64,000 bases of DNA from Neisseria bacilliformis. Lineage in GTDB: Bacteria > Pseudomonadota > Gammaproteobacteria > Burkholderiales > Neisseriaceae. Below, piece after piece: positions 3,287 through 56,936 of the stretch (within the stretch, counting starts at the first letter, position 1; each line of letters begins with the position of its first letter). Under the pieces are notes generated by a model that was not told where the DNA came from, searched no databases, and saw only the letters and a list, made by a program, of their open reading frames with translations. The DNA is taken from contig NZ_CP059571.1 of the NCBI RefSeq assembly GCF_014055025.1, forward strand, positions 2,418,001-2,482,000, given 5' to 3'. Both the position numbers and the translations under genes were made by a program.

Positions 3287-3294
3287 AAAACAAA

Positions 3295-3330
3295 AAACAC
3301 GGTGCGGACAAAATTCTCCGCACCGTGTTT
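3295..3330. terminator. Bidirectional terminator between fnr and cysB
   Basis: A 14-base stem (3295-3308 with 3317-3330) with an 8-base loop is GC-rich in the middle and followed by T-rich sequence. It serves the convergent fnr and cysB genes. Confidence 0.85.
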
Positions 3331-3344
3331 TTTGTCTGCCCGCG

Positions 3345-4295
3345 TCAGATGGAAAAGTCTTCGACCATCGGCGAGTAAAGCAGCTGGTCCAGCCGCGCTT
3401 TGGTGAGATTCGGATTGAGCAGCTCGACAAACTCGTAAATATACCCGCGCAGATAGCTGTCGCCGCGCATAATGATGCCGCTGTCGCACGGCTCGATCAG
3501 CTGCGACACGTCCACCAGCGTCAAGCCCCGGTCGGCCTGCGGGTCGTAAGCGGCCTTGGCGATGATGCCGACGCCCAAACCCAGCCGGACATAGGTTTTC
3601 AGCACATCGCTGTCCGCCACCGACAAAGCGACATCCGGCTTGGCCACCCCCGCCTTGGCAAACGCGCGGGCGACGCCCGAATGCTTGTCGAACGCAAATT
3701 CGTAAGTAACCAGAGGATAGCCCGCAATCAGCGCAATGGTAAGTGCGCCGCGATGGTCGAGCAGCGGATGGCTGTCCGGCACAATCAGCGCGTAATGGTA
3801 GCGGGCGCAGGGAATGCCGCGCAGCTCGGCGGGCATTTCCGACAGCTCCGACGTTACCGCCAAATCGGCCAGGCCGTCTGAAACCGTCTGCCGCACCGCC
3901 TCCGGCGTGCCCTGCCTGATGTTCAGGCGCACTTTCGGATAAACAGCGGCAAACGAAGCCACCACCGGCGGCAGAATGTAGCGCGCCGCCGTATGCGTGG
4001 CCGCGATGGTCAGAACGCCGTCGTCCTGTTTGGCGAACTCGTTGCCGATATTTTTAATGTTCTGAATATCATGCAGAATCCGCTCCGCCATCTGCAACAC
4101 CGCCTTGCCCGGCTGCGACACCGATACAATCCGCTTGCCGCTGCGGATGAAAATCTGGATGCCCAGTTCCTCTTCCAGCAGGCGGATCTGCTTCGACACC
4201 CCCGGCTGCGAGGTAAACAGCGACTCGGCGGCTTCGGAAACGTTCAGATTGTGGCGGAAGACTTCAAGCGCGTAGCGCAACTGCTGTAACTTCAT
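3345..4295 (-). CDS. cysB: LysR-family regulator CysB
   Basis: This 316-residue protein starts MKLQQLRYALEVFRHN at the ATG at 4295. The N-terminal winged helix contains NVSEAAESLFTSQPGVSKQI, the LysR helix-turn-helix. The remainder is a periplasmic-binding-protein-like effector domain. Length and N-terminus match CysB, the activator of sulfate assimilation and cysteine genes that responds to N-acetylserine. No cys biosynthesis gene is in the window. The frame stays open upstream of 4295, but that stretch has no LysR-like sequence. Confidence 0.88.
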   Translation of the reverse strand: MKLQQLRYALEVFRHNLNVSEAAESLFTSQPGVSKQIRLLEEELGIQIFIRSGKRIVSVSQPGKAVLQMAERILHDIQNIKNIGNEFAKQDDGVLTIAATHTAARYILPPVVASFAAVYPKVRLNIRQGTPEAVRQTVSDGLADLAVTSELSEMPAELRGIPCARYHYALIVPDSHPLLDHRGALTIALIAGYPLVTYEFAFDKHSGVARAFAKAGVAKPDVALSVADSDVLKTYVRLGLGVGIIAKAAYDPQADRGLTLVDVSQLIEPCDSGIIMRGDSYLRGYIYEFVELLNPNLTKARLDQLLYSPMVEDFSI

Positions 4296-5565: not shown

Positions 5566-5729
5566 AGGGTCTGCTGACATTCAGCTTGCGAGACGGTTTT
5601 TTTGAGTAAAAAATACCCGAATACAAGGAAAAAAGCGCAGCAAGGTTGAACACCTGCGGGCATTTTTGACGCGGCAGGCGGGTGTTTTCCGCCAAAAACA
5701 CGCCGCAAGGCTGATTGCCAACAGACCCT
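5566..5729. mobile_element. MITE-like element, copy A (164 bp)
   Basis: The left end AGGGTCTGCTGACATTCAGC and the right end, read in reverse as AGGGTCTGTTGGCAATCAGC, form imperfect terminal inverted repeats. The interior core at 5622-5672 is nearly identical to the core of the element at 56775-56936 and related to that at 42745-42906. It encodes no protein. I see no clear target-site duplication. It lies between rmpM and thiL. Confidence 0.72.
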
Positions 5730-13956: not shown

Positions 13957-14072
13957 CTTGTCTTTAAAATTTGCCGTTTGGCTTGTCGCACATTATACAA
14001 TCCTGACGAACGGTTGCAAGACGGATTAAACGGTATATGTGTTATATTTTGTTAATTGCGCGGGGATTCGGT

Positions 14073-41731: not shown

Positions 41732-42556
41732 CTATTGTTTTTTGCCCGCCATGCCGACGCTTTGTTTGCTGTCGGGGAAATACGCGCCGCCGGCGATTTC
41801 GTTGTATTTCGGGCCGAACAGGATGGCGTTGTAGCTACCGCTGCCCCAGTCGGCGGAGCGGGCGTTGCCGTCCACGCCGGTGGTGTTGTCGGGGCGGGTG
41901 GCAAGGGCGGCTTCTTCCAGCGTGATGTCGCTTTTGCCGGGCAGGCCGCTAATGCTGCCGCGCCCTTTGCGGGTGGCGAAGTTGACGGTGTAATCGAGTT
42001 TGCCGTAGTCCTTTTGGCCGTAGCCGGCTTCGGCGAACGCGCTGCCGGTGTAGTGCGCCTCGCCGCTTTGCGGGATGTCGGCGGCGCGGGTGTGCTCGCC
42101 CTGCGCGCCGGCGATGTGCAGTTTGCCGCTTTCCAAACCGCTGCCCTTGGCGGCAACATAAGACGGAATCAGTCCGGCCACTGCCGAGTAGTCCTGCCGG
42201 TAGAGCACCAGTTTGCCCCGGTCGGACACTTTGCCGCTGCCGTCTTTGCGCTCGTATTCCAGTTCGGTGATTCTGTCCAACAGTTTGTTGCCCATGTCGA
42301 AACCGTCGCCGCTGCGGTAGGTTTTCGTGCGCTCTGCGCCCTGTTTTTCGCTGTCGGTGATGGTGAGGGACGAGTCGGCATCGGGCAGCAGGGTGTTCGA
42401 TTGCGACGCTTCGATTTTCAGCGTGCGGTAATGGCCTTTGGGCGCGGGAGACGGGGTGAGCGCGTCGCCCAGAGCCTCGCCCGCGCTGCTGCAAGCGGAC
42501 AATGCCGCCGCTGCGGCAATAAGGCAGATAAAATGGCTTTGTTTCAAAGTTTCCAC
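41732..42556 (-). CDS. Factor H binding protein-like surface lipoprotein
   Basis: About 274 residues with signal peptide and lipobox LSACSSAGEALGDALTP. The order of motifs parallels meningococcal fHbp (GNA1870): GAERTKTYRSGDGFDMGNKL, IAGAQGEHTRAADIPQSG, ..HYTGSAFAEAGYG, YGKLDYTVNFATRKGRGSI and the end YNEIAGGAYFP...VGMAGKKQ. fHbp binds complement factor H; whether this form does is unknown, since the binding residues are not conserved enough to tell. I prefer the GTG at 42556 with GAGG eight bases upstream; an ATG at 42580 lacks one. Confidence 0.82.
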   Translation of the reverse strand: METLKQSHFICLIAAAAALSACSSAGEALGDALTPSPAPKGHYRTLKIEASQSNTLLPDADSSLTITDSEKQGAERTKTYRSGDGFDMGNKLLDRITELEYERKDGSGKVSDRGKLVLYRQDYSAVAGLIPSYVAAKGSGLESGKLHIAGAQGEHTRAADIPQSGEAHYTGSAFAEAGYGQKDYGKLDYTVNFATRKGRGSISGLPGKSDITLEEAALATRPDNTTGVDGNARSADWGSGSYNAILFGPKYNEIAGGAYFPDSKQSVGMAGKKQ

Positions 42557-42671
42557 GGCATAATCCTCGTTTTTTCTCATAAAGAAAGGCAGATAATAGC
42601 AGTATTACCGTATAACTTCCATTGCACGGCCTGACCTGCGTCAAATCTTGGGCATGTTAACAATCAGACAG

Positions 42672-42744: not shown

Positions 42745-42906
42745 AGAACCCGTATTCGCCATTTTCACAGGCAGATTTTATGACATAAAAACACGGCTAC
42801 TGCGTTAAAAATGCTCGCAAGGTACCTAACCTTGCTGCACTTTTTGCCTTGTATCCGCGCTTTTATGTCATAAAATCTGCCTGTGAAAATGGCGAATACA
42901 GGTTCT
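42745..42906. mobile_element. MITE-like element with 52-base terminal inverted repeats (162 bp)
   Basis: The left arm 42745-42796 and right arm 42855-42906 are near-perfect inverted repeats starting AGAACC and containing GTATTCGCCATTTTCACAGG. The 58-base interior, read on the minus strand, is a core (42802-42853) very like that of copies A and B (AGCAAGGTTA, ACCT, GCATTTTTAACGC) although the arms are unrelated. It ends 31 bases before the regulator gene start. No protein is encoded. Confidence 0.8.
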
Positions 42907-42937: not shown

Positions 42938-44533
42938 ATGAGCTCGAAACACCAAAGCGAACGCAGCGACTGGCGCGCGCAGGAAATGCTGCTTTTGCAA
43001 CAGGTTGTCCAAAACCTCGGCAAAGACGGCGGCGCGCACCACAGCGCGCTGAAAATCATGCTGCAACTGATGAGCGAATTTTTCGGCCTCAACCAGGGGC
43101 GCATCGTGTTGCAGCACCTCCACGACGAAAACGCCTCCATCCGCTACGCCTACGGCATGTCGCCCGAACAGGTCGCGCGCGGCGTTTACGCCCCCGGCGA
43201 AGGCATCACCGGCACGGTTTTGCAGCAGTCGCACATGATCGCCGCCGACAACGTGCGCACCGACCCCCTATTTCTCGGCCGCACCGTCCTGCGCAAAGAC
43301 ATCCCCGCCGAACAAACCATGTTCATCGCCCTGCCCGTGGCCGCGCACAACCGCACCTTCGGCGTGCTCGCCTGCCTGCGCGCCCGTTACAGCCCCCGCC
43401 CGCTGCACGACGACATCTCCCTGCTGAAAATCCTCGCCACCCTCATCGGCCAGCTCCTTTATATACAGGAAAGCAGCGAAGCCAGCCGCCGCGAGCTGCA
43501 AACGCAAAACCGCAAACTCAAACAAACCCTGCAATCGCACAGCCGCCGCTACGGCATCATCGGCTCCTCCGCCCCCCTGCTCAACGCCGTCAGCGAACTC
43601 GAACGCGTCGCACACAGCAACGCCAACGTCCTGCTGCTGGGCGAAAACGGCACCGGCAAAGAAATGTTCGCCCGCACCCTGCACACCGCCGGCCGCCGCG
43701 TCGGCCAGCCCTTTATCAAAGTCCGCTGCGCCAACAGGGAAAACGGCGAACTCGCCCGCGAAATCTTCGGCAGCGGCGACACCCCCGGCCTGCTCGAACA
43801 GGCCGACGGCGGCACCATCTTTTTCGACGAAATCGCCGCCCTGCCCCCCGAACAGCAAAACCGCCTGCTGCAAGTGTTGCAGGAAAACACCGTCTGCCGC
43901 ACCGACAGCACCGCCGGGCGCAACATCAACGTGCGCATCATCACCGCCACCACCCGCGACTTGGCCGAAGAAGTAGAAAACGGCCGCTTCGACGCCGAGC
44001 TTTACTACCGCCTCTACGTCGTCCCCATCCGCCTCCCCTCCCTGCGCGAACGCCGCAGCGACATCCCCGAACTGGCCGCCTTCCTCATGCACCGCATCAA
44101 CCGCGAAACCGGCAAAAACCTCAACCTCACCGCCGAAGCCGTCGAACAGCTGCAACACTACGCCTGGCCGGGCAACGTATACGAACTCGAACGCTTCCTC
44201 ACCAAACTCGCCGTGCAAAGCAAAGGCAACATCGCCGACGAAAACGCCGTCTGGCAGCTCCTCACCCGCCAGTCCGCCGCCCCCCTCCCCCGCCCCGCCC
44301 CGCCCGCAGGCAAACCCCGCGCCGTCGGCTTCGCCATCCAGGGCAGCCAGCCGCGCCCCTACCTGCAAGCCGACTCCCACTCCCCCGAAAAAATCGAACA
44401 AACCCTCGCCTACTGCCGGGGCAACAAAACCCAGGCCGCGCAAATGCTCGGCCTGTCCACCCGCCAGCTCTACTACCGCCTGGACAAAATCAGAAAAAAC
44501 AAAGAGAAAAAACAACAGGCAAAACAGCGGTAA
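42938..44533 (+). CDS. NifA/NtrC-like AAA+ regulator lacking the GAFTGA loop
   Basis: A 531-residue protein with a GAF domain at about residues 30-175, an AAA+ domain at 210-430 and a Fis-type helix-turn-helix at the end (TQAAQMLGLSTRQLYYRLDK). Walker A is GENGTGKEMFART and Walker B GGTIFFDEIAAL. Between EIFG and LLEQADGG only SGDTPG stands where related activators have HEKGAFTGA plus about ten residues, so the sigma-54 contact loop is deleted. It may regulate without sigma-54 or be decaying. A MITE lies directly upstream. Confidence 0.88.
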   Translation: MSSKHQSERSDWRAQEMLLLQQVVQNLGKDGGAHHSALKIMLQLMSEFFGLNQGRIVLQHLHDENASIRYAYGMSPEQVARGVYAPGEGITGTVLQQSHMIAADNVRTDPLFLGRTVLRKDIPAEQTMFIALPVAAHNRTFGVLACLRARYSPRPLHDDISLLKILATLIGQLLYIQESSEASRRELQTQNRKLKQTLQSHSRRYGIIGSSAPLLNAVSELERVAHSNANVLLLGENGTGKEMFARTLHTAGRRVGQPFIKVRCANRENGELAREIFGSGDTPGLLEQADGGTIFFDEIAALPPEQQNRLLQVLQENTVCRTDSTAGRNINVRIITATTRDLAEEVENGRFDAELYYRLYVVPIRLPSLRERRSDIPELAAFLMHRINRETGKNLNLTAEAVEQLQHYAWPGNVYELERFLTKLAVQSKGNIADENAVWQLLTRQSAAPLPRPAPPAGKPRAVGFAIQGSQPRPYLQADSHSPEKIEQTLAYCRGNKTQAAQMLGLSTRQLYYRLDKIRKNKEKKQQAKQR

Positions 44534-56774: not shown

Positions 56775-56936
56775 GGGGTCTGTTGGCACTCGGCTTGCAA
56801 GCGGTTTTTTGAGAAAAAATGCCCGAATGCAAGGAAAAAAGCACAGCAAGGTTAGACACCTGCGGGCATTTTTGACGCGGCAGGCGGGTGTTTTTTACCA
56901 AAAAACCGCTTCGCAAGCCGAGTGTCAACAGACCCC
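56775..56936. mobile_element. MITE-like element, copy B (162 bp)
   Basis: Ends GGGGTCTGTTGGCACTCGGC and, in reverse, GGGGTCTGTTGACACTCGGC begin inverted repeats of about 35 bases that continue to GCGGTTTTTTG. The core at 56828-56878 matches copy A (5622-5672) almost base for base. No coding capacity. No target duplication is evident. It directly follows the proteinase gene. Confidence 0.8.

Follow-up and report, generated by a model that had tools for sequence, protein, structure and literature searches.

A hairpin module conserved within exchangeable ends in MITEs of Neisseria, and its possible selection as a folded single strand

MITEs are usually viewed as decayed remnants in which the ends are kept and the middle is lost. 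MITEPsy1 of Pseudomonas syringae, as described in PMC3189936, is a gene-less element of 100 nt whose 18-nt inverted ends are like those of ISPsy2 (IS5; the MITE itself is given as 'IS5?'); it inserts at CTAG or YTAA and was shown to move. The account of the Correia or NEMIS elements in PMC2229807 presents them as MITEs of Neisseria in two sizes, about 107 and 155 bp, that have TA at their ends; the long form has a 50-bp internal stretch. For QMITE1 of Coxiella, PMC5896051 describes variable ends, a conserved core and a source of small RNAs, so the bare idea of a core kept between changing ends has a precedent in one species. In the Neisseria elements analyzed here, the middle is conserved and the ends change. 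These ends also differ from the sequence that we take to be the Correia terminal repeat.

One family with many ends in Neisseria

Our starting point was a window of 64,000 nucleotides, the whole stretch of DNA that was analyzed, from a home genome of 2.49 Mb in one contig. The preliminary description had placed three elements of about 162 bp in this window, and its coordinates were right:

5566..5729, plus strand: first element, end type A (GGGTCTGCTG)
5598..5690, plus strand: core of the first element; model R1, 89 bits; folds weakly (z -1.0)
56775..56936, plus strand: second element, end type A (GGGTCTGTTG)
56804..56896, plus strand: core of the second element; model R1, 96.7 bits; fold z -3.8
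42745..42906, minus strand (core read on the minus strand): third element, end type C, 162 bp
42784..42877, minus strand: hairpin core of the third element; model R1, 99.1 bits
42745..42770, plus strand: outer end of the third element, type C (AGAACCCGTATTCGCC...), resembling the ends of a resident IS5-type transposon
42881..42906, minus strand: inverted partner of that outer end, type C

The core model R1 has three strong places in the window, one per element, at 89-99 bits; it was built from 39 sequences that include the three window elements or close copies, which match by construction. The remaining six R1 rows are the opposite strands of the three cores (26-36 bits) and weak matches of 17-20 bits, at 14064 and 58314. 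When compared with the whole home genome, the third element recovered the second with an E-value of 2.6e-12 and the first with 1.3e-9, a likeness beyond chance. The core had likewise been described correctly. The third element is a single long inverted repeat whose 70-nt arms are 86% complementary, and the RNA fold of its core (42782-42874) reaches -43.2 kcal/mol with a z of -8.5. Its 52-base arms had been called unrelated to those of the other two; this holds for the outer ~25 bp, but the inner arm (GGCAGATTTTATGACATAAAAGCGCGGATACAAGG) aligns with the inner arms of other end types.

The third element sits between divergent genes. Next to it, the reading frame at 41732-42580 (-) encodes a protein that matches the C-terminal domain of factor H binding protein (PF08794, 93.8 bits), and the one at 42938-44533 (+) encodes a sigma-54 activator that has GAF as well as Fis-type domains. 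A clean target-site duplication was not found at its borders. In G012, one of five relatives examined, the flanks of the element abut with 6 bp between them, which makes this a candidate empty site; the corresponding stretch in the other four has no such site. The window also contains 109 exact copies of GCCGTCTGAA, presumably the neisserial uptake sequence, against 0.16 expected.

The three elements are MITEs of one family, with a conserved interior of ~115 bp and differing outer ends of ~20-28 bp. When 145 genus loci were aligned on the core (three without the core; duplicates removed), most elements were ~160 bp long with the core at the center. The outer ends include GGGTCTGTTGACA, GGGGCTGTTTGCAATTGG, AGAACCTGTATTC, GGGTCTGTCGACAATTAACC and GGGCTTCCTGACAATTC, as well as GGGTGTCCTGACAATTC, GGGAGTGTAGTCAGAAGG, GGGCGAGCCGACCATTC, AGGGGTTGCGGAGATTTAGC and others, and the types align with one another from ~25 bp inward. 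At least nine end types, sorted by eye and some of them alike, surround the core in Neisseria, in agreement with the earlier view of a core inside exchangeable ends. Matches to the third element were found in 21 of 46 genus genomes, home genome included (E 1e-6). At the level of the family, 36 of 83 genomes match the core model (E 1e-3), and these belong to 6 of 12 genera. The home genome alone has 29 matches to the third element, counting its own reverse strand and some that cover an arm only, and 51 scored core-model matches.

Two outcomes had been named that would have undone this view, a core tied to one terminus type and a third element that was a one-off recombinant, and neither was found. 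End type C with the core recurs at full length in G001 (L058). The home genome shows reassortment of ends and cores: among 39 elements, 21 have A ends with an A core, 6 have B ends with a B core, 2 join B ends to an A core, 1 joins A ends to a B core, 3 have A ends with an alternative apical hairpin, and 6 are partial or other, including the third element, which the loose sorting pattern scores as "A-core" and which has a core variant of its own. Coreless elements also exist, namely L026 (75 bp, end type C, home genome) and L179 (74 bp), showing that the core is not needed for every insertion. TA is present at both sides of 39 of 86 Neisseria elements and missing from at least one side of the other 47, elements without GG/CC ends having been dropped from this count. 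Near-identical copies within single genomes suggest recent bursts. Two variants of ~207 bp were seen in G034 (L185 on C53 and L186 on C89), the former with ~43 extra bases within the core stem. In G034 and G038, adjoining elements are fused at CCCTAGGG (L078, L079, L188, L191 and L193); these junctions correspond to insertion into another copy's end, with the CTAG target within the junction.

Transposons with similar ends reside in some of the same genomes. In the home genome, one with type C-like ends lies at about 2324814-2325642 of C1 (L150) and, judged by sequence, is the likely parent of the third element. Its two overlapping reading frames match PF13340 and DDE_Tnp_1 above the Pfam cut-offs and score 74.7 and 97.5 bits against NCBIfam transpos_IS5_3, below the whole-protein cut-off of 110. 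By eye, the transposon in the L150 locus (G000:C1 2323375-2326569) is inserted in a gene resembling an IS1016-type transposase. Resident IS5-type transposons whose first ~12-16 bp agree with MITE ends are present in G034 (L152), G038 (L157, a copy that appears damaged), G010 (L146) and G028 (L147). Outside the family, the MITE end GGGCACCTCTATTTA in G139 matches a 1260-bp transposon (L376), the product of which reaches 242 bits against IS5_4, where the cut-off is 140. The NCBIfam scan of parents covered L152, L146, L376 and L150, and L152 and L146 are above the IS5_3 cut-off. Look-alike parents are thereby resident in six genomes (G000, G010, G028, G034, G038 and G139).

PF13340 was present in 8 of 16 genus genomes searched. 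Six of the ten loci read (L148, L149, L150, L151, L153 and L158) had no clear match to MITE ends; L150 was settled by further comparison, and the genome of L151 (G006) has 22 PF13340 matches. Among twelve non-Neisseria genomes, for which the fetched PF01609 loci were considered, a clear parent was found in one and none in the other 11. The end of an IS1182-type transposon in G232 (CTAGCAGCCTGT) resembles that of an Acidobacteriota MITE, but the two are in different genomes and the parent link is therefore weak. A full-size transposon with two inverted cores was not found among the loci examined with a strict regex, which misses decayed copies; a pair at L258 considered as a two-core element proved to be two separate copies.

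Folding, covariation and recurrence across phyla

The module consists of helix P1, an internal loop in which CAAGGC faces AACGC, helix P2, a 3/2-nt internal loop and the apical hairpin P3. RNAalifold applied to 40 genus sequences (alignment A2) gave 32 pairs, 20 of them with compensatory double changes. For a 27-pair structure on 39 genus sequences (A3), 95.1% of cells were paired, with 119 double-change cells against 37.0 when shuffled and 5-23 when slid, and 14 pairs with a double change against 9.7. Both sets were hand-picked from about 120 distinct genus elements, spreading genomes and end types; from 46 candidates, A2 left out L027, L069, L075, L077, L084 and L113, and A3 also L097. Whole stems can be replaced in a compensatory manner, as in L184, where GCCTATG-CCGTC-CATAGGC stands in place of GCAAGGT-TGGAC-ACCTTGC on an unchanged scaffold; L181 and L182, also in G000, have the same alternative tip with small changes. 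This covariation supports the earlier suggestion that the core is the selected part. No Rfam family was above the gathering threshold at the core in six Neisseria loci and eight distant loci. The third element as a whole is similar to MIR9486 at a score under the threshold (66.5 bits, threshold 100; E 2.3e-12), a similarity that we take to reflect the shape of a long inverted repeat.

At the class level, 26 of 274 genomes (home genome included) and 24 of 222 genera match at E 1e-4, three genomes having twelve or more matches. Of 18 distant class loci, 15 are part of inverted-repeat elements that have other ends and measure 160-175 or 215-274 bp, and elements with clear ends outside the genus span 160-326 bp. 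The two-flank pattern GATGCAAGGC...AACGCMGCAGATG, which fixes only two short flanks and leaves the 34-46 bases between them unconstrained, found at least 119 stretches in a collection of bacterial and archaeal genomes, where ~0.2 would be expected by chance (our own arithmetic, with uniform letters). By record title, the matches listed fall in about ten phyla: Pseudomonadota, Acidobacteriota, Desulfobacterota-type, Planctomycetota, Bacillota, Bacteroidota, Verrucomicrobiota, Actinomycetota, Omnitrophota, Elusimicrobia and a few others. Many of the matches listed are metagenome bins; those not marked as bins include records from Streptomyces, Guyparkeria, Microbulbifer, Thioalkalivibrio, Nitrosomonas, Pasteurella testudinis and Neisseria. 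Some cross-phylum matches are just a hairpin of ~100 bp with no clear ends. The pattern was found in no viral contigs, and BLAST of plasmids and phages with the third element gave no matches. The element in Pasteurella testudinis (L326) is close to the Neisseria G034/G038 type, a likeness that suggests transfer between families. In an Omnitrophota bin, a core-bearing hairpin of ~105 bp (L258, about 3290-3400) lies within an unbroken reading frame of 535 aa.

Pairing across phyla was examined without alignment. All of the at least 119 pattern loci were used, Neisseria-type spacers were removed by letter pattern, and the 99 distinct spacers gave 36 clusters outside the Neisseria type; the control exchanged halves between clusters in 5000 shuffles. 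Among the matches listed, Watson-Crick pairs fill 162 of the 252 pair positions of P2, the re-paired control giving 85.4 +/- 7.0 (best of 5000: 111), and 94 of the 216 of P3, where the control gives 62.8 +/- 6.8 (best of 5000: 90). A fold z below -2 was reached by 24 of the 36 spacers and not by the other 12. P1 is paired at 137 of 180 positions against 58.8 +/- 4.2, although the arms of any inverted repeat would pair. A 3/2 loop fits better than a 2/2 loop, with 84 against 68 of 186 when P2 has 8 pairs and 87 against 76 when it has 9. The loop-fit, P1, energy-free wobble and some other counts used 80 of the at least 119 pattern loci, and four Neisseria loci were left out of these three. Pairing in the spacer is thus kept with different letters across phyla, which suggests a selected structure not described before.

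The pairs that deviate from Watson-Crick are unevenly divided between the strands. When spacers of the at least 119 pattern loci were folded without wobble, single mismatches within helices on the core strand were G.T in 44 cases and A.C in 10, and the reverse-complement control gave 10 to 40; an energy-free count over 31 clusters gave 19 and 7. Such a bias suggests one functional single strand, but it extends beyond the core: in 91 Neisseria elements, whose copies are not independent of one another, the outer 28 bp have the same G.T excess (83 to 39) as the inner part (77 to 33), elements without an inverted repeat of 145-175 bp having been dropped. A second arm is present in twelve clusters of long elements (264-279 bp), with the inverted core recognized by motif in 5 of the 12. 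Divided by arm, their G.T and A.C counts are 11 and 5 in arm 1, 0 and 7 in arm 2, and 10 and 5 in the end stem, small numbers that come from the class loci and 80 of the at least 119 pattern loci. If the opposite bias of arm 2 holds, the bias follows each hairpin rather than a transcript of the element, and we therefore lean to single-stranded DNA.

A proposed explanation and its rivals

We propose, with a probability of roughly 0.7, that these elements are MITEs moved in trans by differing IS5-type transposases and that they carry a hairpin selected in single-stranded form. On this proposal, which is drawn from sequence comparison, short non-autonomous MITEs would be moved by resident IS5-type transposases; the outer ~16-28 bp would be the part seen by the transposase, varying by type to suit different transposases, and the interior module would be retained because it is functional as a folded single strand. 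We infer movement in trans and selection on the element's own propagation; what was observed of movement is multi-copy spread and the single candidate empty site in G012. Because the module persists irrespective of the transposase that the ends fit, it may serve the element's spread or survival via a host factor shared by many bacteria. The form of this that we prefer, held tentatively and with the odds close to balanced, is a cis-acting hairpin of single-stranded DNA, which a widely conserved host factor would recognize in DNA that has become single-stranded. It is also conceivable, although we would lean somewhat against the full claim, that an unnamed module spanning phyla is carried independently of the transposase by several IS5/IS1182-like end types and has its folded strand read by broadly conserved host machinery. 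If true, the module would give bacterial MITEs a second determinant of propagation, one that is neutral to the transposase.

The main alternative is a hairpin of RNA. The core would act in read-through transcripts from neighboring genes, altering their processing or stability or rendering the insertion harmless, so that insertions with the core would persist; we consider this possible but doubtful. The large excess of G.T over A.C on the core-oriented strand and the conserved loops with covarying stems would suit such a role, as would the nearness of elements to genes (median distances of 78 and 119 bp, with ORFs of at least 100 aa called crudely) and the transcripts that the accounts of Neisseria Correia repeats (PMC2229807) and Coxiella QMITEs (PMC5896051) report. 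However, no orientation bias to neighboring genes was seen among 64 Neisseria elements (++ 11, -- 13, +- 11 and -+ 10, with 12 within an ORF and 7 with one side missing), in long elements the wobble bias is reversed at the second hairpin (0 to 7), something that one transcript would not produce, and the core itself has no Rfam family above threshold. Template-switch correction is known for quasi-palindromes and could yield concerted changes in both arms, so that pairing in imperfect palindromes might be restored with no selection at all, by common descent and horizontal spread, with which the recent bursts suggested by near-identical copies would agree. We find this unlikely: such correction should erase the asymmetric loops, yet they are kept, and it leaves unexplained both the unpaired flank letters that recur across phyla and the strand-biased wobble.

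The roles first offered for the core were a protein site, a small RNA and a terminator, and these have fared differently. A small RNA, or a folded single-stranded DNA site, still stands. A double-stranded binding site, for example for the nucleoid protein IHF, which binds the long Correia form in vitro according to PMC2229807, would find A-tracts in many Neisseria cores, but elsewhere A-tracts and stem letters are lost with pairing retained, and in three G000 elements the apical stem is swapped for another. With stems replaced and pairing kept, a plain double-stranded protein site is disfavored, and we think any such site quite improbable. We give less credence still to an intrinsic terminator module; in several Neisseria types the hairpin is followed by a T-run on both strands, but G000 type B (GGATTTG) has lost the run, as have most of the listed cross-phylum spacers, and this loss, with the absence of a preferred gene arrangement or orientation, argues against termination. 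Least credible of all is a REP- or REPIN-like unit moved by a Y1 transposase (RAYT). Hairpins do occur singly or as inverted doubles, PMC3116915 reports compensatory changes for REPINs, and some core-rich genomes have Y1 matches (three in G000, two in G010 and one in G034), but the elements have IS5-like ends and TA flanks, and a search for PF01797 (Y1) at E 1e-5 was negative in seven genomes that bear the core (G011, G015, G020, G023, G028, G031 and G038), which makes a REP-type mechanism unlikely.

Comparison with known systems

We class the elements as a variety of MITE on the features tested. They are within 50-500 bp and too short to hold a transposase gene; terminal inverted repeats are found in the genus and at 15 of 18 class-level loci; a target-site duplication was counted as present, TA being on both sides in 39 of 86; and ends in common with a resident autonomous transposon were seen in the six genomes named above, none being found in many others examined. 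The literature searched, with most subscription journals outside the scope, gave no description of such elements that we recognized, and a letter search with six motif pieces matched three papers, by title on papillomavirus and trypanosome. If our proposal is right, bacterial MITEs share a transposase-independent functional part that recurs across phyla and is a candidate class of structured RNA or single-stranded DNA, and the motif, model and controls are available to ask what makes a MITE succeed.

REPINs, as described in PMC3116915, are alike in being mobile hairpin units of inverted doublets with compensatory changes, but they are linked to Y1 RAYTs, whereas core-bearing elements have IS5-like ends and occur in seven genomes with no Y1 match. 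The Correia elements are set apart, by their description in PMC2229807, by one 24-bp end type and an IHF site in the internal stretch. QMITE1, compared by its description in PMC5896051, is 300-400 bp long with variable direct repeats of 2-3 nt and was suggested to be restricted to Coxiella. MITEPsy1, again by description (PMC3189936), has one likely parent, whereas the Neisseria elements combine one interior with many ends.
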